From the IMG/VR virus record IMGVR_UViG_3300008216_000038, positions 1 to 34,030 of that record: DNA of 34,030 nt, one strand, 5' to 3'. Positions 2 through 29,417 of this stretch are shown here, one piece after another. The notes beneath the pieces are model-generated. The model ran no database searches, was not told the DNA's origin, and was given only the letters and a program-made list of their open reading frames with translations. The stretch comes from a virus. The translations under genes and the position numbers were made by a program. How positions within the stretch are numbered: position 1 is the first letter of the stretch; every line of letters starts with the position of its first letter.

Positions 2-3000
2 GCTTGGGTAGATCTGCCCAGCGAGATGCGGCTTGGGAACCTGAATACAGACGAAATGCGGAGATGGGCTCGCCTTCATCCGGAGGCTGCCGATGATGCC
101 TCGATGCCGGGTTTGGCTAGAGTAGTCAATGCGATCAATGACGACAGGATTGCAGACTCGACACTGCTGAACTCCATCGAGTCTATTGCTATCGGACAAC
201 TTCCGCCGTCGGTGTATGCGCACTCAATCCCGTCCGAGCAGTCCATGGTAGACGCCGTCTTGATTGCTGGCGGCATTACGATTGCAGCAATCGAGGCCAC
301 TGGCGGTAGGACCCCGCTGCAGTTCGAGCGGGCCTTTGGGCGCCTGATGCTTCGTACTGAAGAGGTGGACGGTCAGCCGCAGATCGTAGAGGGCTCCGTT
401 GGGCGAGGGATGCGTGTCGTTGGCGCCGCCACGGAGTTTTACGCAGAACTGCCGATTCCGTACATCACCCCAGCCGGGCGGGACTTTCAGCGCACCGGAA
501 CGACGATGATTCGGAGTCCGGATTCCAGTTACATGGCCCGTATTCTGGCAAATATAGAGACTGGCGAACTTGGATTCGCCAGGCACATGACTGACGATGC
601 GCTGGCTCGTGGTCATGAGCGCGGGTCGCTGCAGTACGACCTTCTTGGCGGGTTGGGAATACTGTCTGATTGGATGATCTACTGGGAGCGGCCGTTCATT
701 GCGGCGGCCGGCGTGCCAACCGGGATGGGAGTTCGTGCGTATCGGGTGTCCAAAGATTTCACCACATCTGAAATGGCCCTGCCGACTCGCGCTAGGATGA
801 TGCTTGCTGGCGCATCACCGTGGATTTTCAAGAAGACGCTTAGCGACGATGTGCTTCCTGTTCAGGCGGCAATCAACCGACTCGAAGATCTCATTTCAGG
901 TGAGAAGACCCTTGATGACGTGAAGGCAGCACTCGCTAGAGTGGATGAGCCCGGTGCTCTTAATTTACGCGAAACCAGGGTGGCAGAGCAGGTCCGTGAC
1001 CGGATGGAGAGCACCGGAGAGTCCTACAGGGACGCACTGAATACCGTAGACAGGGCCATGGACGCAGACGTCTGGACCTTCATGCGGTTCTTGCTCGACG
1101 GGGCCGTCCAGAACTCCATTCGTCGTGGCGACAAGGACATCCTGAAGATCATACCAAGCAAGTGGCACGATTCACTCTACGATGTCTTGCGGGCAGCTGG
1201 CGTACCGAACGTCAGGCAATTTCTCGAAGACATCGGAAACTGGTCATCACAGGCTGGAAGGTTCCATCTGTCCGCGATTGAGCGCCTCATGACCGATGGA
1301 GACCCGGGAACTCAGGCGCTACGCATGACTCCCGAGTACAAGCGCGTCCAAGCCGGTATAAATGCGCTCGTAGAGGCCGGCGATCTTCAAGAGTCGCACG
1401 CCGCCTGGATGCTTGGGCTCATGGAGCAAAACGCCTGGCGCCTCACCCTGGATGATGCCGTTACGGAAATCACCGATCCGGTCGATTTCTTTCGCTACGT
1501 TGAGCTCCGTCGTCGAGGAAAACCGGCAGAACCTCCAACTGAACTTGGACCAGAGCCTATTGAGGTCGAGGGGCCTGAGCCCATGCCGCCGGTTGAGGAC
1601 CTGTTGCCTGGGAGCTCCGAACCGTCAGGTGTGTACAAATTCGTTCCAGACCCAGACGTAGAAACGACTGGAAGAGGAACTTGGGAATCAGTTGATATTG
1701 AGCCTTCGCCAGTGTCTCCGGATGAGCCATTGGTGGTACCCACCTCTTCCCGAAGCCTGGATGAAGAGGGGCGGCTGCTCACCCCCCTCGACCTACCTGA
1801 CGATGTAAAGGCGCTTGGCTACGAAATATATGGCCAACCTGGCAGGAGGGACATTTTTGGCGCCCTTGGGCTTAGACCTGAGGTGCCTCTGATGGTGCGC
1901 AGACTCAAGGGGGCGCGTCCAAATGAGGGAGAACCGGTTGGTGCGCTATGGCTCAAGACCGCCACGCGATTTGATCTCGGCGGATTTGAGTGGTTGGCGG
2001 AGGCTGGCATAGATACCCCCACGGACCGCCTGCGGGCCAGCATTTGGAGTTTTCTTCGAGAGGTACCAGAGGAACAACTGCCTGTAGAGTTCTACTTTGC
2101 GGATGTTCTGGAGAGAAACATTTCCGCTGCCGAGCGCAAAATCGTTTTCGATGATTTTGGCGATCAGGTGAGGAAACTTTGGGCCGTTGGTAATAAGATC
2201 AGGCCTGTACCATTCCTCACGATCATTCCTGGCCGTGCAAGCGAGGTTGGCTACACCCACATATCCGATGATTTCTTTGGCTTGCCGACCACCACAAGAG
2301 CGATCGAAACACCTGATGGGTACACCATTGTTCTTGCAGAAGCACATCCACGGTGGGCCAAAGAGCGTGTAGAGGTCATAGAGTTCCCCCGCCGACCGTT
2401 GGAGGCGCCACCGCCTCGAGTAGAAGAGCCGGAGGCACCACCTACCCGGGTAGAGGAGCCCGAGGAGCCAACCGTCGAGGAGGTGCCTGCACCTCGGGTA
2501 GAAGAGGCACCGCCAGCTGAAGAGGTGCCCGCGCCCAGAGTTGAGGAGCCAGAAGCACCCCCGGTTGAAGAAGCTCCCGCACCCGAGGTCAAGGTCAGCA
2601 AGCCAGAAGAGGTACCAGACAAGGTTCGATCTGTTCCGCTTACCGCAACGATTCGAGAGAAGGCACTTGAACTGCTTGAAATAGACCTGTCGAAGATGAA
2701 GAAGCCTGGGCTCGTCAAGATCATTGGCGATCTCATCATCATTCCGAACAAGACAGCGAAGATGCTCAAGAAATACACCAGAGATGACCTCGCTGGTGCA
2801 ATTCAACGCTGGGCTGAGCTCTACGGTCGCTATCCCATCCTGACTGGTAAGGACGCACCTGGTCCAGTCGAGCCTGGCGCGACCAACCTAAGGCGGCGCC
2901 TATCGATCTCAATGGTTGATCAATGGTTGTTCGATGGGCACCTGACCACAGCGCAGGCCGCCAAGTTGCATGTCGTAATGGACCGGCTTCCGTCGGAGTG

Positions 3001-6000
3001 GTTTGAGCGCACAGCGCTCAGCGATATCGAGCATCCGGAGATCTACGAATCGACCCGTGTGTTCGGCCAAACCCGTTTGCGCAAAAAGCCCGACAGTCAA
3101 CTTGATGACGCCGCAATGGTCCAGGCGCTCAGGGCAATCATCGTCCCAGAAACCAGGCTGCCGACGAAGTTGTCCAAGGCTGCGACCGCGAAAATGGCAG
3201 CGCTGTCGTCAGATGAGCTCTTCGGCGAGCTCGCGAAAATCATCGACGACACAGCCTTTAAGGAATTCAAGCCTGGCATCATGATCGGCGACGTTCTGGA
3301 GGCCAACAAGGCCTTTATGAAGGAAGCCCGCCCGTATTTCGTGGAGATTGCTCAGCGCCTGTTTGAGGACCCAGAAATCCAGATCAAGCACGGCTGGAGT
3401 GGAATGCGCTCCATGCTTGAGCAGTATTCAGATCTCGGCCGAGTTGAGGCGAAAGGACCCAACAGTGTCTTGCGAATGGGAGACGCGGAGGAGTTCGTTC
3501 TGCGGACACTCACTGATGAGTTCATTGGGTTCCACGACAAGGACGTGGTGCTCTTCCACATCCTCCACGAGATTGCCCACACCCTCATCAAGAACATCCT
3601 GACGGACCAGGAACTCTCAGCGCTGGACCGCGCGTTCAACATCCACCGGGCAGCTGGCTTCAAGGGATGGCATCGGCGGGAAGAGGCTGCAATCGTCAGC
3701 ATCAAGGACGCCAGTGTACTTAGGGATGAGTGGGCCGCTGACATGCTGGCCTCGAACCTACTGGGCCACCGTGGGTTCGATGAGCTCATGGCTGCTATCG
3801 AAGCTGACGATCTTGCTGATGTGGGGCAGGAAATGGCCCTCCCAAGACAAGCACGCGAAGTTGGCGTCGGAGGATTGTCCGAGTGGGAACTTGCAGAAAA
3901 GCTGGATGGCTTCAACGGAGACGGACAGCGGATTGCCGAGTGGATGTCGGAAAACGTAGACGATCCATCATACAAAGCAATTTTGAATCTTATTGTCCCG
4001 CACCTTGAAGATGTGGACTTCCAGATTCTTAATGTTGGCGACACCGCCCCTCGGGGAATGGGCGATTCGATAGGCTATGCCGTTCCCGGGTGGACACCCA
4101 CCCTTTACCCGCGTGCGCCAAACGTCAAGGCCACTGTATACCTTCGCGGGCCAGATGCAGGAAAAACTGGCCTCTATAGCGAAGCTATTACTCATGAGTT
4201 TCTTCATGCCGCAACGATGCGGAGAATGAGAGAGGCCAAACTTGTCGGCAACGAGGGCACGGCTCTTAATAAGACGTGGTTTGAATTTGAGGATCTTACA
4301 AAGACGGTGCTTGCCGAAAGAAAGGCCAGATTTGAGGCTGGAGAAACGATTCCCGGGCCGAATTGGATCAATGCCGATGAGCTCATGGCGTGGGGCCTGA
4401 CGAACAAGGACTTTCAGGACTGGCTGCGGACAATCAAAGTCGACGTGAACAAGACTGCATTCACTCGGTTTGTAGAACTCGTTCGAGACCTGCTCGGAAT
4501 CCCCGCAAAGGAAACGAACGCACTCACGGAAGTGATCCGGCTCACGGAAAACATTCTAACGGCCGATGTCAGCAAGCTTCCTCTACGCGAATGGACGGCC
4601 CCAAGGCCAATAATTGCGGCTCCAATAAGGTTTGCGGACCAGGTTCGAGGCCTCTTTCAGGGTCTTTTTGAGCGCATAGCCTCCGTCCTCAAGCGTACCT
4701 ATGGGGACGAGGGCATCATCAAGGCTCTCGACATCAACAAGGACGTGGCTGACTACTTCACTGGGTTAGTCGACCGGCTGATGAGTGGGGAGGTGGACGT
4801 AGCGCCCATACGCCGCATCTACGAACGCAGATCGAGAGAACCAAGAACGCTGCACTCAATCTCCTCTTCCAAGCGCATGATTCGGCTCCGCGATGTGTCC
4901 GGTGTTGAACCATCGGAGATGGGGGTGGGAGAGCTCGACCTGGCTGTTCGCGATGCTGGGTTCATTGATCTGGACGACGCCAAGCGGGCCATGCGTGATG
5001 CCTATCTTGACTTCGATGAGTACGAGCGCCTCTACGCAGCATCCCGGGAGCTCCTGGGGCCCGAAAAGCTCAGCGAGGGCCCGAGTAGGTGGGGCAGTGA
5101 GGGCGAATGGTTTGTCAGTGGAGCGGTGGCCGCGAAACTCAGAGAGCTCGCAAAGCGAGTCGAGGCTCTGGGCGAGGACATCATGGCCAGGTACAAAGAA
5201 GGCCAACTTGATGGAATCGAGGATCTGGAGGCTGAGCACGCAGACCTGGTCTCTCGGCTTCACGCGGCCGAAAATGAGTTGCAAACAGGCGCCTCTGGCA
5301 TTGTTGAGAGTGTAGGCAGCTTAGAAGAAAAGCTTGGACGCACCTACGTTAGGTGGCAGCAGAACAGGGCAGACCCCGAGGCTCGTTTGAGCGAAATGGC
5401 TCATAAGCGCAGCGATGGTGACTACGACAGGCCAATGTCCAAGGCCGAGTACGATGGCTATTGGGCTGATGCCGTTAGGCACAACCTGCAGTTCGGGTAC
5501 TCCTATTCGGCCATCAGTAATAGGCCCGTCCTAAAACTTGGTCAGCTTGCCAAGATGTCCAACAAGAAGCTGCTGGCCATAGCGGAAGACGCCTGGCAGG
5601 TCCGAGAAAACATCAGAAGGCGCTACCCGGCGGCTGAAAACAGGGTGAACGAGGAAGCGCTGGCCGCATGGAACCTGCAGCGAATCATGGTGAACAAGAT
5701 GCCTGCTGCAGTTCAGGCAGCACTTGAGCTCATAATTCACGATCGCGGTGGACCACGCGGAGCAAGAATGGACCCCCCGAAAGAGTCTATTCCCCCGAAG
5801 CCCTTTGAAATCTTTTTCCACGGCCGCGAGGGAGCCGAGAGGGGGTTCTTCAGCTTTGATTTTGAGAACTACCAGTCACTCGTCAACGTTCTGAAGTATG
5901 GGGACTGGCGAACGCTTCTGCAGGCCAATGCCTTGATGTTGAGCAAGTTCATGGGCGAGAGGTGGGCCCAGGGCTTCATCAACCATTTCGACCACGCCAC

Positions 6001-9000
6001 AGATTCGGCCGGCCGCGTGATTCTTACGGCCCGTGGCGAGCTGCAGGCCGCTAAGGCGTTTGAGTGGTACATCCGCACGACAAACGCTCCGAGCGGCGGA
6101 CTCAAGCGGTACTTCGACCAGATGCACATGACGCTGCAGGACTACTGGGCAAAGATTCGTGGCCGCACCGCCATCATCCCTCCGGAAGTACGCCAGTTCT
6201 TTGACCGCTTTCTTCGCCCGGATCTTCGGTATGAGGGAGACGCCATCAAGTTGGGCGCCTTGCGAGAACACCCAGTCACCTTTCTTAAGGAAACAGCCGC
6301 TGAACGGCTTACGGACGAGAAGCAACTCAGAACCGCAAAGAGGCGTGCGTTTTGGTCCGTGAATCTCCACCCAGACGTTGTGCGGTCCGAGCTCGGTATT
6401 CCGGTGGGTGCTACCGAGGTGAACGGTATCGAAATCTTGTCAGCAGCTGTGGGCTACATTGCGGCGGAAAACGCCAAGAAGTTGCTCGGACCAGGTCGTA
6501 TTTTCATGATGAGCCCGCGGACGATGGTGCCTGAAACGCGCAGGAAACTAGTGCTCGATCGTTTGAGCGATCGTCTGCATGCCGCGATTGGCCAGTTCAT
6601 ACCAACGTGGAGCAAAACGAATAAAAGGTATGAACTTGATCCGGCACAGCAGGCTGGTATCCATGTTCTTCTTCAGGATGTAGCCAAGCACCCAATGGGG
6701 AACATCATTCCAGATCGTCTGCTGGAGCCTGGCGCTGATCTTAGTTGGATGGCCGTCACCGAATGGGCCAGTATCGCCGAGGCGATTGTCGACATAGAAG
6801 CTGGTGTAGGGGCTAGGAGGGCTCACTATTCAGAGCACATCAACCCGAGCCAGGCCTATGCGCTTTGGAATATGTTGAAGTCTGGTGTCGTAGACATATC
6901 TGAAGGCACCAATACTGTGACGGGGATGGTCAACAACCTGCGCAAGGCCTTCAAGTTGGATGTGTTTGCGAACGGAAACCTCGGTCCAGTCTTTCGAATT
7001 GTCTGGGAGAAGCGCATTCGCAGCATGGAGCTTGCCCCGCGCGAGATTTTGAAAATCGCTAGGGATGCGCTGAGTGGAGACAAAGAGGTCTCGCTCCAGC
7101 AGATCTACCTGAAGATGAAGGACTATCTCACGCCTCCAGTGAGCCCGTCCCTGGTCGACGACATCGTTGGAACGATCAATCTTGAGCACGTCGATCCGAC
7201 GATGAAAGCCAACGCTACTGGCTGGCTTGAGTTTCTGCGGGAATTCACCTCTGCAGAAAAGAAAAGGCATTGGGGTGAGTCGACGGAAGCATCATCGGCC
7301 TTGTTGCGCGGCGAAGAGCCTATGGGGCCTGGCTACAACTTTGCTCCCACAGCAGAAGGCATGAGCAAACTTGAGTACCTCCTTTCAAGCCATCTCCAGC
7401 TTGAGCGTCTTCTTGGGCAGTCACAGAGGTGGACAGAGCAGCAACAGGTCAACATTCTTCAGCCCATTCGTCGATATGCGATGGACCTTGAGGAAGCCAA
7501 GGCGCGTGGGGTGGATGGTTCCGAGTGGTTAGCAACTCTTTCGGACGAAGATCTCATCGTACTGGGAGACGCCCTCGGGAAGATCGAGATTAGCTTGGAC
7601 ACGTCTCATAAGAGAATCACCCAAGTTGGCGAGTGGCTTATGCAGGCTGCTGCCGGTGAGCGAGACGCCTCCATCTTGGAAGGAACGACGGAACAACAGA
7701 AAGCGGCCTTCTACAAGTGGTTCTACGAAGGCAACTTCACCGCAATGTTTGATTATCTCTTGGAGTTTGGGCGCGAAGCCGGCCATAGCAAGACATTCTC
7801 TACATACGACATCAACCAGGCCATGCTCAACATGATGATTCGCTTGCGGGCCTATGAGCTCATGGGCCAGGTGTCCAAAGATCTCGCCCGCTATGGTCTT
7901 ATGACCGACCTGTCTCAGTTAGGGACGGATATGCCGCTATTTGACGCCGTAACGGAGGCATACACTGGGTTCCGCCATGATTCACATGTCGACGAGGTGC
8001 AGTTCTACATTCAGATGCAGCTGAACTACCGCGCCACCGGGTATTTTTACAAAAAGACGGTGGATGTTCTGGCTCCAGACGGCACGCCAACAGGCGAAAC
8101 ACGCGACACATACGTTCATCGTGCGCCACCAGCGCCGAGAAGCAAGACAGGCAAGTCGATGCTGTCTCCGGAGCGTGCGGAATACGCCAAGAGTCGTGGC
8201 TGGGCGCGGGATCCAGAGATTCCAAGCAACTTTCACGAAATGCAGTCCTTTACCAGCGCCATGGAAATCCTTGATTCGATTGGAGTCAAGGCATCAACCG
8301 AAAAATGGGAACGCGTCCTGTTTCATGACGGCTCAGAGCACCTCATGCCGGCCGGTGCGGCCAGAGAGTATTTCGACGCACTAGAGCGGGTGGGAGAGCT
8401 CGGTACCGCCCGCGGCGGCGCGGCGCCAGCCAAGGCGTTCATTATTGGAAAAGCCGGTAGAGTACGGGTCAAAGAACGACCGACTGGCATCGATGTAAAG
8501 CAGTACCCAGGAGCTGTGGCGAAAGCCCAGTTTGGAAAGACAATCGACGACATGATGACGCTTTTCCCCATGACGGCACGCCACACGCGGATGGGCGTCA
8601 CCACTGGGATTTTCCTGCCGAATCCTGCGTACTACTTGGGTGTGGCTGTTGGCGCTTTCTTCCAGCTGTACGAGGGGCTCGGTCCCCTGGGCGCCATTAG
8701 GGCCGTAGCTAGCCACAATCAGATGAAGGCCGCCCTTATGGCCCGCCAGTGGAGAGAAGGAGATTACAAGCCTTCCGCCCCTCCGATTCCGACCAGATCG
8801 GGCGAGCTTCTAACAACCGACCTTCTGTTCGATGAAGTCAACTTGGAGGGCATGAAGTCGAGTTACATCCGCGCGGAAGCGATGCAGGGCATTGAGGCGG
8901 ATCTGCAGAAAGAACTTCGCAGTGCTCGATCTGGTCGTCTGCGAAGCATGTTGGGGAAAGTGTTCGACCAGGAGCGGTTGATCGAGACCGCCACCGCCAT

Positions 9001-10114
9001 TGACAACTATTTCCGTCTTTCGGCTTTTCTGGATGCCCGCGTAAGAGGCATGAACTCATCAGACGCCGCCAAGCTCGCTAGGAAGATTGGGTTTGACTAC
9101 GCGGCCTTGACCGAGTTTGAGAAGAAGTACATGCGCAGCCTGATTCTGTTCTACTCCTACTTCAGGAAGAACATGGATCTCTTCTGGGACACGCTCCTGA
9201 CGAACCCGGAGCGGCTCATAGGGCAGATGCGCCTGATTCGCGGCGTTCACTCTGTGGCGCTCGAGGAGGACCCGGAGGTCGTGCTTAGGAAGTACGCGAT
9301 GGGAAGACTTCCTGTGTGGTTCAAGGACGCAGCAGCCAATCAGCACGTACAGAACCAGTGGATGTATATCGTTCCACCACTTCCGTACCATGACGCGATT
9401 ATGTGGCCCATTGATCTATTTGGCGCCCTCAAGGGCGACAATGAGGCCCTTCGAGGCCTGGTGGCCCACGTCTCGCCGTGGTGGCAGGCCCCATTTGTGT
9501 TTGCTACCCAGAAGGACATCTTCTGGGGCAAAGAGCTTGAGCTCTACAACAGGGTACCCACCTGGTTGGTTGAGTGGGATCTCAACATGACTGGTGGGAT
9601 GCTGGTCAAGGACCTCTTTGACGTCCAGTTGAGAGCTCACGCGGACCCATCCAAGGCCGATGCCCCCGGAATGGAGCGTTGGTACCATGCTCGTAATGCT
9701 CAAGCCTGGTGGGCCTGGCGAAACCTGATGCAATTCCCTACGGCTGGCCGTTCCATGGACACCATCAGCGCGATTGATCGCGCCAACATCGGTCCTGTGG
9801 AGTGGATCAACGCTAAGACCAAGGAACTCGGGCGCGGTTACGATCCCGCAAGCGTCATCTTGACGAGGCCGTCTGATTTTAGCGAAGACACCATGACGCC
9901 CCGGCCAGGCCTGACCGAGCTCGACGAGTTCCTGGGGCTCATTGGAATTCGCCCCATGCAAATCATGCACGGCCACATTTCCGGCATTAAGATCCAGCAG
10001 CGCCAGATCGCTGAACTACGCAGGGCCGCAGCGAGGGCGAGGCTTTCCGACCCCGGAAGGTACCCTGGTGGTATTCTGGAGTTGGTTGGCCCCGGCTTTG
10101 TACCACCCAAGTAG
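2..10114 (+). CDS. Giant phage polyvalent / internal virion-type protein (5'-partial)
   Basis: The frame is open to the left edge with no stop before the first ATG at 26 and no Shine-Dalgarno there, so the true start is probably upstream; residues are numbered from that ATG (3,362 aa). Seen: a proline/glutamate linker near residues 503-600; an E/P/V-rich repeat linker at about 793-870; HEIAH at 1181-1185 with a later DEWAAD (E1235), a gluzincin-like third ligand; HEFLH at 1390-1394 with DELMAW (E1452), resembling zincin domains of polyvalent proteins; a predicted coiled coil near 1735-1790; a hydrophobic stretch near 2856-2885; and a C-terminal FYSYFRKN at 3042-3049, as in the C-terminal domains of large phage polyvalent proteins. 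By analogy it may be carried in the virion and injected to act at the cell envelope or on host proteins. A tape-measure role is less likely given the protease motifs. The family is fairly sure; the function is inference. Confidence 0.85.
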   Translation, partial: AWVDLPSEMRLGNLNTDEMRRWARLHPEAADDASMPGLARVVNAINDDRIADSTLLNSIESIAIGQLPPSVYAHSIPSEQSMVDAVLIAGGITIAAIEATGGRTPLQFERAFGRLMLRTEEVDGQPQIVEGSVGRGMRVVGAATEFYAELPIPYITPAGRDFQRTGTTMIRSPDSSYMARILANIETGELGFARHMTDDALARGHERGSLQYDLLGGLGILSDWMIYWERPFIAAAGVPTGMGVRAYRVSKDFTTSEMALPTRARMMLAGASPWIFKKTLSDDVLPVQAAINRLEDLISGEKTLDDVKAALARVDEPGALNLRETRVAEQVRDRMESTGESYRDALNTVDRAMDADVWTFMRFLLDGAVQNSIRRGDKDILKIIPSKWHDSLYDVLRAAGVPNVRQFLEDIGNWSSQAGRFHLSAIERLMTDGDPGTQALRMTPEYKRVQAGINALVEAGDLQESHAAWMLGLMEQNAWRLTLDDAVTEITDPVDFFRYVELRRRGKPAEPPTELGPEPIEVEGPEPMPPVEDLLPGSSEPSGVYKFVPDPDVETTGRGTWESVDIEPSPVSPDEPLVVPTSSRSLDEEGRLLTPLDLPDDVKALGYEIYGQPGRRDIFGALGLRPEVPLMVRRLKGARPNEGEPVGALWLKTATRFDLGGFEWLAEAGIDTPTDRLRASIWSFLREVPEEQLPVEFYFADVLERNISAAERKIVFDDFGDQVRKLWAVGNKIRPVPFLTIIPGRASEVGYTHISDDFFGLPTTTRAIETPDGYTIVLAEAHPRWAKERVEVIEFPRRPLEAPPPRVEEPEAPPTRVEEPEEPTVEEVPAPRVEEAPPAEEVPAPRVEEPEAPPVEEAPAPEVKVSKPEEVPDKVRSVPLTATIREKALELLEIDLSKMKKPGLVKIIGDLIIIPNKTAKMLKKYTRDDLAGAIQRWAELYGRYPILTGKDAPGPVEPGATNLRRRLSISMVDQWLFDGHLTTAQAAKLHVVMDRLPSEWFERTALSDIEHPEIYESTRVFGQTRLRKKPDSQLDDAAMVQALRAIIVPETRLPTKLSKAATAKMAALSSDELFGELAKIIDDTAFKEFKPGIMIGDVLEANKAFMKEARPYFVEIAQRLFEDPEIQIKHGWSGMRSMLEQYSDLGRVEAKGPNSVLRMGDAEEFVLRTLTDEFIGFHDKDVVLFHILHEIAHTLIKNILTDQELSALDRAFNIHRAAGFKGWHRREEAAIVSIKDASVLRDEWAADMLASNLLGHRGFDELMAAIEADDLADVGQEMALPRQAREVGVGGLSEWELAEKLDGFNGDGQRIAEWMSENVDDPSYKAILNLIVPHLEDVDFQILNVGDTAPRGMGDSIGYAVPGWTPTLYPRAPNVKATVYLRGPDAGKTGLYSEAITHEFLHAATMRRMREAKLVGNEGTALNKTWFEFEDLTKTVLAERKARFEAGETIPGPNWINADELMAWGLTNKDFQDWLRTIKVDVNKTAFTRFVELVRDLLGIPAKETNALTEVIRLTENILTADVSKLPLREWTAPRPIIAAPIRFADQVRGLFQGLFERIASVLKRTYGDEGIIKALDINKDVADYFTGLVDRLMSGEVDVAPIRRIYERRSREPRTLHSISSSKRMIRLRDVSGVEPSEMGVGELDLAVRDAGFIDLDDAKRAMRDAYLDFDEYERLYAASRELLGPEKLSEGPSRWGSEGEWFVSGAVAAKLRELAKRVEALGEDIMARYKEGQLDGIEDLEAEHADLVSRLHAAENELQTGASGIVESVGSLEEKLGRTYVRWQQNRADPEARLSEMAHKRSDGDYDRPMSKAEYDGYWADAVRHNLQFGYSYSAISNRPVLKLGQLAKMSNKKLLAIAEDAWQVRENIRRRYPAAENRVNEEALAAWNLQRIMVNKMPAAVQAALELIIHDRGGPRGARMDPPKESIPPKPFEIFFHGREGAERGFFSFDFENYQSLVNVLKYGDWRTLLQANALMLSKFMGERWAQGFINHFDHATDSAGRVILTARGELQAAKAFEWYIRTTNAPSGGLKRYFDQMHMTLQDYWAKIRGRTAIIPPEVRQFFDRFLRPDLRYEGDAIKLGALREHPVTFLKETAAERLTDEKQLRTAKRRAFWSVNLHPDVVRSELGIPVGATEVNGIEILSAAVGYIAAENAKKLLGPGRIFMMSPRTMVPETRRKLVLDRLSDRLHAAIGQFIPTWSKTNKRYELDPAQQAGIHVLLQDVAKHPMGNIIPDRLLEPGADLSWMAVTEWASIAEAIVDIEAGVGARRAHYSEHINPSQAYALWNMLKSGVVDISEGTNTVTGMVNNLRKAFKLDVFANGNLGPVFRIVWEKRIRSMELAPREILKIARDALSGDKEVSLQQIYLKMKDYLTPPVSPSLVDDIVGTINLEHVDPTMKANATGWLEFLREFTSAEKKRHWGESTEASSALLRGEEPMGPGYNFAPTAEGMSKLEYLLSSHLQLERLLGQSQRWTEQQQVNILQPIRRYAMDLEEAKARGVDGSEWLATLSDEDLIVLGDALGKIEISLDTSHKRITQVGEWLMQAAAGERDASILEGTTEQQKAAFYKWFYEGNFTAMFDYLLEFGREAGHSKTFSTYDINQAMLNMMIRLRAYELMGQVSKDLARYGLMTDLSQLGTDMPLFDAVTEAYTGFRHDSHVDEVQFYIQMQLNYRATGYFYKKTVDVLAPDGTPTGETRDTYVHRAPPAPRSKTGKSMLSPERAEYAKSRGWARDPEIPSNFHEMQSFTSAMEILDSIGVKASTEKWERVLFHDGSEHLMPAGAAREYFDALERVGELGTARGGAAPAKAFIIGKAGRVRVKERPTGIDVKQYPGAVAKAQFGKTIDDMMTLFPMTARHTRMGVTTGIFLPNPAYYLGVAVGAFFQLYEGLGPLGAIRAVASHNQMKAALMARQWREGDYKPSAPPIPTRSGELLTTDLLFDEVNLEGMKSSYIRAEAMQGIEADLQKELRSARSGRLRSMLGKVFDQERLIETATAIDNYFRLSAFLDARVRGMNSSDAAKLARKIGFDYAALTEFEKKYMRSLILFYSYFRKNMDLFWDTLLTNPERLIGQMRLIRGVHSVALEEDPEVVLRKYAMGRLPVWFKDAAANQHVQNQWMYIVPPLPYHDAIMWPIDLFGALKGDNEALRGLVAHVSPWWQAPFVFATQKDIFWGKELELYNRVPTWLVEWDLNMTGGMLVKDLFDVQLRAHADPSKADAPGMERWYHARNAQAWWAWRNLMQFPTAGRSMDTISAIDRANIGPVEWINAKTKELGRGYDPASVILTRPSDFSEDTMTPRPGLTELDEFLGLIGIRPMQIMHGHISGIKIQQRQIAELRRAAARARLSDPGRYPGGILELVGPGFVPPK
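2402..2620 (+). repeat. Degenerate E/P/A/V-rich coding repeat in the giant gene
   Basis: Codons for short units of the kind PAPRVEEPEAPP recur imperfectly about six times, giving an acidic, proline-rich and presumably disordered linker between the N-terminal region and the first metalloprotease-like region. Such tracts expand and contract easily by slippage. Confidence 0.7.
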
Positions 10115-19067: not shown

Positions 19068-20021
19068 TTAAGCGAACGGGTCAGCGTCTTCCGCGAGCTC
19101 GACCGGCTCTTCTGGTTCTGGGTGGTCGTGTACGAATTCGTTTGCGGGCTCTTCTGCAGCAGTCTCGACCACCCTCTTGGCCCTGCTCTTTCGCCTTTTC
19201 CTCTGCGCAGGCGGTGCGTCCGCATCAATGGTCTCGGTGACATTGAGCAGTGCCTGCTCGCCCGCATCCTTCTCAAGGTCCTTGCGGACGGCTTCTGGCA
19301 CGAACATGTCCGTATTCTGGCCAGCAATATCCGAGACTGTGTCGTGGGCCAGCGCGGCCCTCGCATCAGCTGTGAGTGGCAGGTACTTGCAGATGCGTCG
19401 GATGACGGTCTTGCGCCACATCTCTTCGGTGTGCGTGACCCACGGCCCTGACTGGCCGCTGCGTGCCGAGTTGCGGATGGACTCGATCTGGTCTCGGCGC
19501 ATGACCTCAACCTGCTTCTGGCCATCCTTGAAGAAGCACACAGCGTATGCGAGCACGGGCTGACCGGGATCCCCATCGTACTTCGGGCGGTGCCGAAGGA
19601 CCTCTCCTCCCTCCAGATCGAAGACGTGTTCGAAGTCCTCGTTCTCGTGGACCACCCGGGCCACAAAGTTGGCGACATCGCCTGAGCGGCGCACCAACTC
19701 CATCAGGCCGGTGTAGTCAATCCAGAGCTCGGCTTCCATGGTTTTCCGCTTGCTGTTGTAGAGCGGAACCAGGTGGGCTCGGTGTAGCACACCGCCGGCG
19801 ACAAGGTTGAGCTCGCAGGCCTTGGCTAGAGAGGTGTAGACAGACTCTGGGCTGCAGTCCAGAAGGCGTTCGTTCTTGTAGGCCTCAAAGCAGGCCAGGT
19901 TGACGATGCGCTCAATATCTGTGCCCTTGGGGGCGATTCGCTTGAGGGTGGGGGATTTTCGCTCAAGGTATCGCTTGAGATCGTTCAGTCTGCCTGACTG
20001 TGTAAGTGCTGTGTTGCTCAC
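19068..20021 (-). CDS. recT: RecT-family single-strand DNA annealing protein
   Basis: 317 residues from a GTG that overlaps the exonuclease stop (GTGA), with GGAG upstream. Typical RecT signs in order: an N-terminal helix (RLNDLKRYLERK), PESVYTSLAKACELNL, then GGVLHRAHLVPLYN, ELWIDYTGLMELVRRSG, and a late segment with GPWVTHTEEMWRKTVIRRIC leading into KYLPLT. The C-terminal 70 residues are acidic and disordered-looking with a basic RKRRKSRAKR patch. RecT anneals complementary single strands exposed by a partner exonuclease; the coupled YqaJ-type nuclease gene immediately upstream is that partner. Used in phage recombination and repair in the cytoplasm. Confidence 0.93.
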   Translation of the reverse strand: MSNTALTQSGRLNDLKRYLERKSPTLKRIAPKGTDIERIVNLACFEAYKNERLLDCSPESVYTSLAKACELNLVAGGVLHRAHLVPLYNSKRKTMEAELWIDYTGLMELVRRSGDVANFVARVVHENEDFEHVFDLEGGEVLRHRPKYDGDPGQPVLAYAVCFFKDGQKQVEVMRRDQIESIRNSARSGQSGPWVTHTEEMWRKTVIRRICKYLPLTADARAALAHDTVSDIAGQNTDMFVPEAVRKDLEKDAGEQALLNVTETIDADAPPAQRKRRKSRAKRVVETAAEEPANEFVHDHPEPEEPVELAEDADPFA

Positions 20022-20983
20022 GATTTATCTCCAATGATGCGCAGCACCCGGGCGCCAACGCGTACTGAAAGGTAGGACTCGTATAGTTCCGGGTGGTCCT
20101 TTTGAAACTTCTTCTGGTCGAATCGCTGAGAGTCTTTGTTCTTCTTCCAGGTGGCGATCTTATCTATGCCGGCGCCGTCGCCGATAGCGGCCCTCAGTCT
20201 GTTTTCGATTGTGCTCTTCTCAGACGAGAGCTCCTTGTGGAGCCGACGAACCTCGAGTAGACGCTCGTGCATTCCGATTTCATTCCCAGTCGCTGGGCGA
20301 AGTGACTCCGCTTTTGGGCGCGGGTGCATCAAGGCGAGTGCCGCCTTGGCTAAATCGCTGCCATCCGGAGGTGGCGGGACGTTCCCATCGACGTGCTTGC
20401 CCCACCAGGCGAGGGCGGTATCGAGGATCTGTGTGCCAAGTTCCTTGTCGCGATCGATTCGATATTCTCTGTAATCGTCCAGTCCAATCAGAACGGCGAC
20501 ATCCCATCGATCCAGATCGGACACCTCCATGTAGACTCTGCACTGCACCTCGACATCGAGTGGAACCAGGCCTGTCCCGCCTTCTCCCCATCCGCGCGAG
20601 GATCTGCGGGTCTTGATCTCCAGCCCCCACGTTTGATTGCGTGAGTCTGTGACAATGCGATCCGGAGTGCCAAAGATATGCGGCCTTTCGGGGTGCCAGA
20701 CCAGGCCACACTCCTTCACCTCTACGTTTGGATTGCTCTCGGCGTAGAGCTCAGACACATACTTCTCCATGATCCGGCCACGCTTCATGACTGGATTGTC
20801 TGATTGCTCTTCGATTTCGAGGCGCATCTTGTTCGACCAGAGCGCAAACGGGCTCTTCCCGAAGGAACCGTTCTTCATTTCACTGCTGGCTGATGCGCAC
20901 ACGATGGAGGCGATATCGGTACCGCCTAGTCCACCCTTTCGTTCACGGAGCCACTGCTGCCGTTCGTTGGTTGTCATGTTCAT
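20018..20983 (-). CDS. YqaJ-type (PD-(D/E)XK) exonuclease
   Basis: 321 residues if started at the ATG at 20983 (MNMTTNERQQW; a second ATG lies 6 nt on). An in-frame ATG at 21028 would lengthen it, but that stretch is poorly protein-like and overlaps a TTGACA promoter element, so I prefer the shorter form. Motifs: GGTDIASIV at 20-28, E73 in GRIMEKYV, D108 in GTPDR, E122-x-K124 in LEIKTRR, and Q147 in VEVQCRVYM. These are the metal-binding and catalytic positions of the YqaJ/lambda-exonuclease fold. It would resect double-strand DNA ends to feed RecT, encoded just downstream with overlapping codons. Confidence 0.9.
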   Translation of the reverse strand: MNMTTNERQQWLRERKGGLGGTDIASIVCASASSEMKNGSFGKSPFALWSNKMRLEIEEQSDNPVMKRGRIMEKYVSELYAESNPNVEVKECGLVWHPERPHIFGTPDRIVTDSRNQTWGLEIKTRRSSRGWGEGGTGLVPLDVEVQCRVYMEVSDLDRWDVAVLIGLDDYREYRIDRDKELGTQILDTALAWWGKHVDGNVPPPPDGSDLAKAALALMHPRPKAESLRPATGNEIGMHERLLEVRRLHKELSSEKSTIENRLRAAIGDGAGIDKIATWKKNKDSQRFDQKKFQKDHPELYESYLSVRVGARVLRIIGDKS

Positions 20984-20989
20984 AAAGGA

Positions 20990-21018
20990 AGCGTAGTCAC
21001 GGCTGATGGGTGTGTCAA
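20990..21018 (-). promoter_or_regulatory. Candidate leftward promoter for exonuclease-recT
   Basis: On the minus strand a perfect TTGACA (21018-21013) is followed after exactly 17 nt by TACGCT (20995-20990). The -10 matches consensus at only three positions, so it is probably weak or activated. Initiation would fall near the ATG at 20983, giving a very short or leaderless 5' end. Confidence 0.45.
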
Positions 21019-21029
21019 GGAGGCACACA
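21011..21029. promoter_or_regulatory. Candidate operator: 19-bp inverted repeat
   Basis: TGTGT (21011-21015) and ACACA (21025-21029) are perfect inverted arms around a 9-nt centre. The left arm overlaps the TTGACA of the leftward promoter and the site lies upstream of the divergent HTH gene, so a bound repressor could block leftward transcription and regulate itself. Five-base arms can occur by chance. Confidence 0.4.
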
Positions 21030-26187: not shown

Positions 26188-27075
26188 TCACTCGTTGAGA
26201 GTTTTTTGATGTCCGCGGAACAATGGCGCCACAAATTTGAGAGCTTGCTCCTTCGCTTTGTGGGCCCCGTACATGGCGGCAGGCCTTGACCAGAGACGAG
26301 ACAGGAGCCTCCACTCTGTGGGGTAATCGATCCACCTGTCCTCTGGTTGGTACAGCTGGGCATGAGGAATACAGTCGAGTTCCCACACCCGCTCGAGGCG
26401 GCTGGTCGCCTTCTCTATGGTGTCGTTGCCGAAGCCAATGAGGGTGTAGACCCGGAGCCTCTTCATGGAGACGTCACTGAGGATCTCTCTCGCCTTCTCC
26501 AGGTGGTGGATGGCCAGCTTGGTGTCGGCCGCGAGGAAGATCTGTCCGAGCCTGATGGTCTGTACCTGTTCTGCAAACCAGGGATTGACCAGGCGACAGT
26601 CGATGCCGCCGGCGAACTCAATGCGTTCTGACTGGTTCCGCAACATCTCGAACACTCCGGCCTGGTGAGCTCTTGAGGCCTGCAGGAAGTTGTTGTCCTG
26701 GATTATCCAACCAGGCGGATAGTCTGGTATCTCAACGATGCGTCCTTCCCGAGCTGGGACCCGACACCATGGACACTTTCTGTTGCAGCCCCGTGTTGTG
26801 AATGTCACGCCTTCCTTGATGTACTTGCCCGGAACAAACTTCCCTTGCTCCTCATCAAAGGCGGGGCCGCCAATCTTGACGACGGGGTAGTGGGCTGCCC
26901 ATGCTCTCTGGAGCCTCTTGCCTTTCTCGATGTCCCAGGTGAATGCCACGGAGACATGCACCTCACTCACGACCGATGGGTCAGGTCTGAACATGGGCGG
27001 GTCGCCGACGAATGCCAACGCATCCTTCGGGGTGTGGGAGTTGCGCCTTGGGAATACCCGGATGAGTTTCTTCAT
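26188..27075 (-). CDS. Radical SAM enzyme (phage type, substrate unknown)
   Basis: 295 residues from ATG 27075, chosen over the ATG 30 nt upstream because it follows the previous stop and a G-rich site. The cluster C97-x3-C101-x2-C104 (RGCNRKCPWC) binds the 4Fe-4S that cleaves S-adenosylmethionine. Then IIQDNNFLQASRAH, IEFAGGIDCRLVNP and a later GFGNDTIEKATS and DCIPHAQLYQPE fit the radical SAM barrel. The N-terminus could hold a cobalamin-like or partner-binding domain (VSVAFTWDIEKGKRL); no B12-binding motif is clear. It lies next to a PP-loop ATPase and DNA modification genes, so modification of DNA bases is a possibility; tRNA modification or nucleotide metabolism are alternatives. Confidence 0.85.
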   Translation of the reverse strand: MKKLIRVFPRRNSHTPKDALAFVGDPPMFRPDPSVVSEVHVSVAFTWDIEKGKRLQRAWAAHYPVVKIGGPAFDEEQGKFVPGKYIKEGVTFTTRGCNRKCPWCRVPAREGRIVEIPDYPPGWIIQDNNFLQASRAHQAGVFEMLRNQSERIEFAGGIDCRLVNPWFAEQVQTIRLGQIFLAADTKLAIHHLEKAREILSDVSMKRLRVYTLIGFGNDTIEKATSRLERVWELDCIPHAQLYQPEDRWIDYPTEWRLLSRLWSRPAAMYGAHKAKEQALKFVAPLFRGHQKTLNE

Positions 27076-27080
27076 CGCCC

Positions 27081-28067
27081 CTACTTCTCTGAACCAGTGT
27101 CGCACATCCCCCAGCGCACACAGCCCTGATGGCCTGTCGGGTCAGTGAAGAGTTCTACCTGGTTCATGCTCCCGCCTCGAGTGGTGCGAGCCCACTTGAT
27201 CACCTTGTCGATAGGCCAGCCATCACCCGCACGCTTTCCCGTCTTCGCGTCAGTTCTGGAGATCGGATTCTGGAACCAGGTAGGGGGATGATATCCGAGA
27301 GACTCGAAGGTCTCACCCTTGTCGGCATATCGAGCCGCGGCCATATCCATAACGACCTCTTCGAGCTCGCCAAGAATGCTTAGGCGTTCTGGCGTGAAGT
27401 CGCTCATGGCCCGCAGCTCCGCCTTTCTAGCAAAGATGCATGGGTAACAGCCTACCCTGGTCGATCCTTGCTCAAGGTAGAGTCGGCAGGGGCGCACCCC
27501 GTGGCGCTGGTGGATAGCGATGACATCCTCTTCCGACCAGTCGATCAGTGGGCGCCAGACATCACACTTGAAGGTTCCGCTGTGTTCCCATTCCAGCATG
27601 AGAGACCGGGCGGCACTCTCCTGGGCCCGGATGCCCACGACATTGACCACTTGGCCCTCGCGCTCAAGGAGGTAATCCCTTGCCGGGAAGACCTTGAGGC
27701 CTTGAGTACACCACCGCCTGACGCGAGAGGGAAACATTCCCTTCTTCAGACAGAGCCGCACCATCGAGGAATACTCCACTCCAAGCATCTTCTCGAAATG
27801 CTCTGCGATTGGAACCAACTCTTCCTTGAGGTCGATCTTGGCTTGAAGCCTGGTCACGGGCCCCACGACAGCTGGGAGATCGTTCTCTACATACTCATAG
27901 AGCAGGTCGTGTTCCCATCCAGTATCGAAGAAGATGCGGTCGTACTCGTCAGGCTCGAAGCCCAACTCCATGAGGTACAGGCAGCAGGCCGTGGAGTCCT
28001 TGCCACCGCTGACAGAGACAACCAAGCGTCGTCCTGCGAGGATGTCATTGAGTTCTGTGCGTGTCAT
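27081..28067 (-). CDS. PP-loop ATPase of the PAPS reductase / DndC-like superfamily
   Basis: 328 residues; ATG overlaps the methyltransferase stop (ATGA). The PP-loop VSVSGGKDSTA at about 17-27 binds ATP and adenylates a substrate. Later parts carry FDTGWEHD, a RRWCTQGLK element, VVGIRAQESAARS, WRPLIDWSEEDV and GCYPCIFARK, so two to four cysteines might hold an iron-sulfur cluster or transfer sulfur, as in DndC and TtcA-like proteins. Plain PAPS reduction is less likely in a phage, as no other sulfate assimilation gene is present. I see no DndA, B, D or E, so a full phosphorothioate system is not present in this window. Confidence 0.85.
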   Translation of the reverse strand: MTRTELNDILAGRRLVVSVSGGKDSTACCLYLMELGFEPDEYDRIFFDTGWEHDLLYEYVENDLPAVVGPVTRLQAKIDLKEELVPIAEHFEKMLGVEYSSMVRLCLKKGMFPSRVRRWCTQGLKVFPARDYLLEREGQVVNVVGIRAQESAARSLMLEWEHSGTFKCDVWRPLIDWSEEDVIAIHQRHGVRPCRLYLEQGSTRVGCYPCIFARKAELRAMSDFTPERLSILGELEEVVMDMAAARYADKGETFESLGYHPPTWFQNPISRTDAKTGKRAGDGWPIDKVIKWARTTRGGSMNQVELFTDPTGHQGCVRWGMCDTGSEK

Positions 28068-28912
28068 CGTCCTTCCCTAACTTGTCGGAACAAAGGCGCG
28101 TCGCCCCTGATTCGTCTGCGAGCTTCTTCTGCGTACTCTTCGTTGAGCTCATAGCCCAGGAAGTTTCTGCCCAGCCTGTTCGCCACCAGGCCGGTGGTGC
28201 CAGCGCCGGCGAATGGATCGAGCACCAGGTCTCCGACTGCACTCCCGGCCTTGATGCAGCGCTCTGCCAGCAGCTCCGGCATGACCGCTTGATGGCTTCC
28301 TGCGTACCTGGCCACAGGCATGGACCAGACATCTCTCGGTCGGCGGCCGTCGAGCTCGTCAGCGTTGTACACGCGCCCGCTGTAGGTGTCGTTGCCGCTC
28401 TGCTTGTGCCCGCCAAAGCCAGCTGTGATGGTGGCGTTCGGATGCTTGAGTGGTTCAAGCACAGCCTGCATATCGAAGTAGTAGTCGTGCTGCTTGGCAA
28501 AGAGAAAGATGTATTCGTGCGATGGCGTGAAACGATTGGTGACGCCACCTCCTGCAGGGATGGGATTGGTCTTGTGCCAGATGATGTCGGAGCGCAATAT
28601 CCAGCCACGGCGCTTGAGTTCAAGAGCCACGCGCCACGGCATGCCAACCAACTCCTTGTTGTGGTATCCGTCTCCGATGTTCAGCCACAGCGTTCCGTCG
28701 TCTGTGAGGATGTTCCCGACTATGTCCAGCCTGTTGGCCAGTTGGTAGACGTATTCATTCCTGGTCTGGTCAGCGCCGAGCTCGCCATCGGTTCCATAGT
28801 TCCGTTGGTTCCAGTAGGGCGGGCTCGTCACGCAGCACCTGGCCGCGTTGGTAGATGATTCTGTAAGGTTCTGGCAGTCTCCATGGATTACTGCAGCCCA
28901 CGTTTCAGGCAT
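28064..28912 (-). CDS. DNA amino-methyltransferase (N4-cytosine or N6-adenine, beta class)
   Basis: 282 residues from ATG 28912, with GGAG upstream and an 8-nt overlap with the GNAT gene stop; in-frame codons further upstream are low quality. Motif IV TSPPYW at 29-34 precedes the SAM-binding motif I DPFAGAGTT at 232-240, the beta-class order. Intervening segments include GTLWLNIGDGYHN, MPWRVALELKRRGWILRSDI, PSHEYIFLFAKQHDYYFD and PRDVWSMPV. An S-P-P-Y motif is most frequent in N4-cytosine enzymes, but adenine enzymes with it exist. A solitary phage enzyme without a restriction partner would protect phage DNA or mark it for a second modification. Confidence 0.92.
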   Translation of the reverse strand: MPETWAAVIHGDCQNLTESSTNAARCCVTSPPYWNQRNYGTDGELGADQTRNEYVYQLANRLDIVGNILTDDGTLWLNIGDGYHNKELVGMPWRVALELKRRGWILRSDIIWHKTNPIPAGGGVTNRFTPSHEYIFLFAKQHDYYFDMQAVLEPLKHPNATITAGFGGHKQSGNDTYSGRVYNADELDGRRPRDVWSMPVARYAGSHQAVMPELLAERCIKAGSAVGDLVLDPFAGAGTTGLVANRLGRNFLGYELNEEYAEEARRRIRGDAPLFRQVREGR

Positions 28913-29417
28913 GTTGTATGTCTCCGGAGAACAGTTGGAGGGTTGAGTTGATTGCCAGTTCTGCTGGCGGCATGTCTGCGGGCAACAGCTGGAGCGCAAT
29001 GAGGCCCAGGTCTTTGGTCTTGCCCACTTCCTTGAATCCTGCCCGCCTATAGCACCGGCCGAAGTCCCGCTTCTTGCGGACCTTGCGTGGGTCTACGAAG
29101 GTGATCATGCCGAGCTCTGGCGGGTCTCCCCACACAGCACGGGTAGCGGCGATGGCCTCGAGTATGAGCTCACTGGAGAGGCCGGCGCCCTCGTTCCGGA
29201 ACAATGAGTTCACCCAGGCGCCAGCCCATGCGTGCTTGGTGTACTCCGGAAAGGGCCAGGACGTGACCCACAGCGCCTTGGCGGGAGCTCCTGCCAAGAG
29301 CACGACGCACCGACCAGGCGGGACGAACTGCGGGCTTCCAACCTTCTGTCGGTTGTAGTGCCTATCGGCTAACGGCAACGCTTCCTTGTCGGCGCGGCTG
29401 GATACTCGCCACCTCAC
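28905..29417 (-). CDS. GNAT-fold protein, Mom-like DNA modification candidate
   Basis: 170 residues from a GTG coupled to the upstream mini-gene (GTGA). Early motif ADRHYNRQK (H20-Y21), then FVPPGRCVVLL, ALWVTSWPF, KHAWAGAWVNSLFRNEGAGL, with R-N-E-G-A-G at 74-79 matching the acetyl-CoA-binding R/Q-x-x-G-x-G/A of GNAT proteins, and a C-terminal RCYRRAGF near 121-128 matching the GNAT YxxxGF element. GNAT proteins of this kind in phages include Mom of phage Mu, which adds a methylcarbamoyl group to adenine in DNA. The adjacent DNA methyltransferase supports the Mom reading. I rely on the motif pattern and context, not an alignment; an unrelated acetyltransferase remains possible. Confidence 0.75.
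   Translation of the reverse strand: MRWRVSSRADKEALPLADRHYNRQKVGSPQFVPPGRCVVLLAGAPAKALWVTSWPFPEYTKHAWAGAWVNSLFRNEGAGLSSELILEAIAATRAVWGDPPELGMITFVDPRKVRKKRDFGRCYRRAGFKEVGKTKDLGLIALQLLPADMPPAELAINSTLQLFSGDIQHA

Follow-up and report, generated by a model that had tools for sequence, protein, structure and literature searches.

Two candidate zincin domains of different families in a giant phage protein of the putative ejection type

The zincin is the commonest domain of phage polyvalent proteins (Iyer et al. 2017, PMC5512222). According to the same survey, 1–5 zincin domains are present in ~36% of polyvalent proteins, ~8% of these having more than one copy, and self-processing or host targeting was suggested as their function. 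A zincin is also part of the virion RNA polymerase (vRNAP, gp50) of phage N4 (PDB 9pnr and others; related vRNAPs occur in Schitoviridae), in which residues 2141-2378 correspond to the published C1 domain (PMC12633501). The structure of the N4 protein has been solved. In the structure paper on the ejection protein of phage PhiM1 (PDB 8vb2; PMC11440229), neither HExxH nor a protease or metal site is mentioned, as judged by text search. Note that folds with HExxH are not necessarily proteases, as the motif is found in radical SAM enzymes as well (PMC12633501). Phage giants with several zincins have already been described (Iyer et al. 2017); new in the protein presented here are the family of its upstream zincin and an apparent swap of the downstream one in a relative.

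The window, i.e. the whole stretch of 34,030 nucleotides analysed here (IMG/VR record IMGVR_UViG_3300008216_000038), starts with an uninterrupted frame of 3370 codons on the plus strand (2-10114), which is open to base 2 and continues past the 5' end of the contig. Residue 1 of the encoded giant protein aligns with residue 468 of the giant of contig L167, and ~470 N-terminal residues are missing at the contig edge. The open frames of relatives encode 3501 (L154/L167), 3864 (L025) and 4008 (L026) amino acids, and the complete window giant would have about 3500-4000. The features of this gene are as follows.

2..10114, plus strand: giant protein of the internal-virion/ejection type (putative), 3370 amino acids present, N terminus missing
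2..1504, plus strand: remainder of the N-terminal region, residues 1-501, kept in all relatives
1505..1654, plus strand: Pro-rich linker 1, residues 502-551, adjoining the N-terminal region
2369..2629, plus strand: Pro/Glu-rich linker 2, residues 790-876, where L026 has a ParB-like insert
3377..3796, plus strand: zincin 1 (putative), gluzincin-like and lineage-specific, residues ~1126-1265, kept in L025, L026 and L154/L167
3566..3580, plus strand: HEIAH of zincin 1, residues 1189-1193 (HEIAH/HELAH/HELSH/HEMTH across four giants)
3725..3742, plus strand: DEWAAD of zincin 1, from residue 1242
3728..3742, plus strand: EWAAD of zincin 1, residues 1243-1247, with the predicted third-ligand Glu and an Asp at +4 as in gluzincin ExxxD
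3866..4564, plus strand: zincin 2 (by profile and model), ejection-protein zincin of the N4 vRNAP C1 / phiKMV gp37 type, residues ~1289-1521
4193..4207, plus strand: HEFLH of zincin 2, residues 1398-1402; H, E and H invariant in 50 sequences
4376..4393, plus strand: DELMAW of zincin 2, from residue 1459
4379..4381, plus strand: Glu1460 of DELMAW, predicted third zinc ligand of zincin 2, invariant in 50 sequences
4679..10096, plus strand: C-terminal backbone, residues 1560-3365, showing identity with L167

A preliminary description of this DNA had reported the pairs HEIAH/DEWAAD and HEFLH/DELMAW, about 210 residues apart; motifs and coordinates proved exact, and the protein holds exactly two HExxH, separated by 209 residues. 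The predicted third ligands are E1243 and E1460, located 54 and 62 residues past their respective HExxH. In composition-preserving shuffles of the giant, 0.09 HExxH per protein were found on average, and only 0.35% of the shuffles contained at least two, so that a chance origin of both motifs is unlikely by motif count alone. Beyond this count, we take both motifs as real because their ligands are conserved in homologues. The plausible third ligand that the preliminary description assigned to each site is indeed a conserved Glu, kept in all 50 zincin-2 sequences and in all four giants that possess zincin 1; its premise that the HExxH should lie in helices also holds, as both are within helices predicted by AlphaFold2. 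Its reading is thereby supported in part, namely for two zincin-like sites in one giant chain with relatives among internal virion/ejection proteins; cutting of host or virion proteins at two stages, or of the giant by itself, would be conjecture.

Zincin 2 can be solidly assigned by sequence to the large family of ejection-protein zincins that includes N4-type vRNAPs, internal core proteins of the phiKMV/PhiM1 type and other polyvalent giants. A profile built from 50 sequences matched in PDB the phiKMV-type internal virion protein (9sfn, chain 9sfn_G; E 4.3e-47), N4 vRNAP (E ~2e-15 to 3e-15; 2.7e-15 for residues 2141-2378 of 9pnr) and the PhiM1 ejection protein (8vb2, E 6.5e-8), which retains HEAAH and the third Glu (HEFIS). 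In fact, the only invariant columns of this alignment are H, E and H of the HExxH and the Glu of DELMAW, i.e. across 50 phage giants the invariance of zincin 2 is limited to the four predicted catalytic residues. Residues 1312-1524 furthermore match phrog_2206, annotated as virion RNA polymerase (E 3.6e-12); this match covers the zincin part of that family and excludes its polymerase. A tblastn search with zincin 2 retrieved 293 phage records (E<=1); most of them are internal virion proteins of the phiKMV-like kind or N4-like vRNAPs, and a crAss-like giant and a DarB-like giant of Serratia phage Parlo are also included. An IMG/VR pattern search for the third-ligand motif alone, D-E-L-h-A-W-G-L-T (DELhAWGLT), detected 18 contigs, and in all of them (18/18) an HExxH is present in the same frame 54-83 residues upstream.

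Structure prediction of the zincin region was based on AlphaFold2 with the 50-sequence alignment (mean pLDDT 74), which modelled both zincins; a single-sequence prediction of residues 1051-1560 reached a pLDDT of 37 and was not interpreted. In zincin 2, the modelled core (pLDDT ~90-97) consists of strands 255-259, 274-277 and 294-298 (segment numbering), followed by the HEFLH helix (309-328, with HEFLH at 314-318) and the Glu helix (374-383, with the third Glu at 376). This is the order of elements described for the zincin core (PMC5512222), and zincin 2 as modelled thus has the hallmarks of the superfamily: an HExxH helix after a three-stranded sheet and a third ligand on a later helix. A Foldseek search of the model found nothing significant in PDB; in BFVD, it yielded 12 matches (E 5e-12 to 5e-4, best 4.6e-12), namely polyvalent-domain proteins, internal core proteins and one virion RNA polymerase.

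Gluzincins have an ExxxD following their HExxH, and this is the pattern of zincin 1. Its H, E, H and E-W-x-A-D are invariant in 4/4 colinear giants, down to a backbone identity of ~34%, with 54 or 52 residues between HExxH and Glu. The domain is ~60% identical in the IMG/VR giants L025 and L026; in L154/L167, the active-site stretch is 37% identical (comparison of the full-length proteins gives E 3e-6). Among the four giants 29 of ~153 columns are invariant, and the probability that all five motif positions fall among them by chance is ~2e-4 by simple multiplication. No match to zincin 1 was found by sequence search in Pfam, NCBIfam, PHROGs or PDB, or by tblastn against known phages; its profiles found no relative among the genome contigs, and the zincin 1 of the deep relative, used as a scan query, found itself only. 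EWAAD alone was rejected as a search motif, as it is undiagnostic: besides two known relatives, its hits had no HExxH in the same frame. In the model, HEIAH lies within helix 96-115 and EWAAD within helix 153-169 (pLDDT ~50-83), with no strands or beta sheet ahead of the HExxH helix and no fold match in PDB. As far as sequence comparison goes, zincin 1 is a separate, lineage-specific gluzincin-like domain (HExxH-54-ExxxD), known from four members, and represents a family that appears new relative to the libraries searched.

A tandem duplication of one zincin was considered and rejected: the profiles of zincins 1 and 2 share only 10 columns around the HExxH (14% in hhalign), and the two domains are therefore not recent duplicates.

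The giants have a common layout, consisting of an N-terminal region of ~980 residues, a Pro-rich linker in the same place, two zincins and a C-terminal backbone of ~1500-1800 residues. The giant of L154/L167, which came from the scan for the zincin-2 motif, is colinear with the whole window giant, with 29% identity in the N-terminal part and 34% in the C-terminal part. Against L167, residues 1-573 are 28.9% identical (E 6e-61) and residues 1929-3350 are 34% identical; between these terminal regions, the only significant matches are the two zincin stretches. The position equivalent to linker 1 has at least 11 Pro per 40 residues in 4/4 giants. Profile searches with the N-terminal region gave no PDB sequence match, and those with the C-terminal backbone gave no meaningful one; besides the zincins, no effector domain was identified in the window giant.

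Several observations concern individual relatives. Contig L001 (IMGVR_UViG_3300025277_000123) begins within the giant gene and stops short of the zincins; it matches the window giant with 100% identity over the final 690 residues. The L154 giant has a LysM domain in its C-terminal backbone (residues 1593-1634, E 1.4e-10), and no domain was found at the equivalent place of the window giant. In L026 (5222-7267; residues ~1347-1449 of the giant counted from GTG), a ParB-like stretch (phrog_1033, E 1e-3) sits in the Pro-rich linker upstream of zincin 1; it is absent from the window giant and from L025.

How does this protein compare with the described ones? In N4 vRNAP, as in the window giant, the zincin (C1, residues 2141-2378, aligning with zincin 2) has an N-terminal region with a linker before it and a large C-terminal region after it. 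However, no T7-like RNA polymerase was detected in the window giant, which possesses a second, unrelated zincin upstream, and no sequence match to N4 C2 is detectable in its C-terminal region; similarly, blastp found no match between the C-termini of the LUZ7 vRNAP and the window giant. A T7-like polymerase hidden in the N-terminal or middle regions was rejected as a candidate, since the profiles of these regions match no PDB chain, with the chains of N4 vRNAP included in the library. Judged by sequence, the window giant thus shares the C1 zincin with N4-type vRNAPs and lacks a recognisable T7-like RNA polymerase domain. The 9sfn (phiKMV gp37-type) and 8vb2 (PhiM1) proteins match zincin 2 over ~240 and ~150 residues, respectively, and keep the HExxH and the third Glu, but they are only ~1260-1340 amino acids long and the match is limited to the zincin-2 stretch; phiKMV gp37 has one HExxH only. 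The gene on L169 at 2198-5989 encodes the PhiM1 internal core protein, with a length equal to that of PDB 8vb2, and retains HEAAH and HEFIS. Polyvalent proteins (PMC5512222) resemble the window giant in being giant multidomain phage proteins with, in some cases, more than one zincin, and the ParB-like insert of the relative L026 is a further likeness; on the other hand, the window giant yielded no effector domain besides the zincins, and its zincin-1 family is unmatched in the libraries used.

Giants with one zincin-2 domain and a further HExxH stretch are found elsewhere, e.g., the DarB-like protein of Serratia phage Parlo and the vRNAP of Vibrio phage PG11. In six further contigs (L056, L059, L064, L067, L104, L127) the zincin-2 domain is accompanied by HE[LM]AH ~775 residues downstream. 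Unlike the window giant, these other giants with an extra HExxH carry second motifs of other types and at other positions. The longer pattern HE[LM]AH[FY]xxRNHGxxF is present ~760-980 residues downstream in the same six contigs and in L082 and resembles the SprT-type HExxH...H.

As to genome position, genes for a major head protein and for a virion structural/internal virion protein lie in the same orientation within the last 18 kb of the 73-kb contig of L025. The gene of the L025 giant begins around base 230 of this contig, and adjacency to the head genes assumes circular permutation; no overlap was found between the contig ends. The homology of the window giant to virion or ejected proteins lies in the zincin-2 domain only (9sfn, N4 vRNAP and 8vb2, as well as the Foldseek matches in BFVD). 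By analogy with these proteins, the giant is probably packed into the phage head and injected into bacteria.

The two zincins appear to have different histories. Immediately upstream of zincin 2, zincin 1 included, L025 and L026 share 84-88% identity, and immediately downstream 78%, whereas zincin 2 itself (residues 1291-1480) is only 37% identical. Of the fourfold sites, 51/213 differ in the flanks and 17/28 in zincin 2 (Fisher p 2e-4). Furthermore, in a tree the zincin 2 of L026 groups with that of L023 (support 97/91), whose giant matches the window giant only weakly outside zincin 2. These sequence data suggest that in L026 zincin 2 alone was exchanged by recombination, as a cassette. Alternatively, the domain may have diverged fast, but this is disfavoured because synonymous sites jump too. 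More tentatively, zincin 1 may have founded a new zincin family working alongside the common ejection-protein zincin, with zincin 1 tracking the backbone and zincin 2 serving as a swapped cassette; such a pattern would be expected of a zincin 2 that determines host- or target-specificity in the course of entry.

The reading that we consider probable is that of an ejected giant internal virion protein of the polyvalent kind, with two independent tandem domains of the zinc-metallopeptidase type, which would act after ejection. We infer zinc binding, proteolysis, its timing and its targets for both zincins in the following way. The giant would be packaged and ejected together with the DNA; each zincin probably binds one Zn2+ via His, His and Glu and probably hydrolyses peptide bonds, with the Glu of HExxH as the general base. 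Most likely, the two would act after ejection, not within a single relay but on different substrates, located in the host envelope or cytoplasm or formed by linkers of the giant itself. With two separable zincins and, in one relative, an apparent natural swap of one of them, these phages offer comparative handles on what is cut, whether proteins of the host, the machinery of ejection or the giant.

This last target leads to self-processing, in which one or both zincins would cut the giant in cis, e.g. in the Pro-rich linkers, either after ejection or during assembly, and free its N-terminal, middle and C-terminal parts. We regard it as possible, though rather doubtful. In 4/4 giants, the N-terminal region is indeed separated from the zincins by Pro-rich linkers, autoprocessing has been proposed for this class of proteins (PMC5512222), and DdrB of phage P1 is cut before packaging. 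However, a Pro-rich stretch was found in only 29 of the 111 zincin-2 frames of at least 1200 amino acids and hence is no general substrate, and N4 vRNAP, carrying a zincin of the same type, is packaged unprocessed (PMC5512222), because of which we disfavour maturation cleavage by zincin 2 in particular. It is also conceivable, if improbable, that the metal sites are structural or otherwise non-proteolytic, i.e. that the metal stabilises an ejection protein that has to unfold and refold, or that another chemistry takes place. To exit the capsid, the giant presumably has to unfold, a point that has been discussed for N4 vRNAP (PMC12633501); encapsidation in N4 depends on the zincin-bearing region (PMC5512222), and HExxH occurs in other chemistries (PMC12633501). 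Nevertheless, the general-base Glu, which a purely structural metal does not need, is invariant in 50 sequences, and because of this invariance we prefer catalysis to a structural metal.

Zincin 1 deserves separate consideration, as its HExxH could be coincidental or vestigial in an ordinary helix, zincin 2 alone being a real metallopeptidase. The giant is largely helical, so that finding an HExxH within a helix carries little weight; two or more HExxH do occur in 0.35% of the shuffles, and an extra HExxH was present in 10 of the 99 scored zincin-2 frames, some of them probably by chance. In addition, zincin 1 has no family, PDB or fold match, and its model is of moderate confidence and has no sheet. 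We nevertheless think this unlikely: H, E, H, E and D are kept in four giants, one of them at ~34% backbone identity; all five motif positions are invariant although just 29 of ~153 columns are (chance ~2e-4); and in L167 nothing but zincin 1 and zincin 2 still aligns significantly between the terminal regions.

The window carries other genes as well, on the minus strand. RecT-like annealing protein and RecE-like exonuclease genes adjoin each other at 19068-21028, as in a phage recombination module. At 26191-28999, genes for a radical SAM-type protein, a protein with a PAPS-reductase domain and an N6/N4 DNA methyltransferase adjoin and may possibly serve DNA or nucleotide modification.
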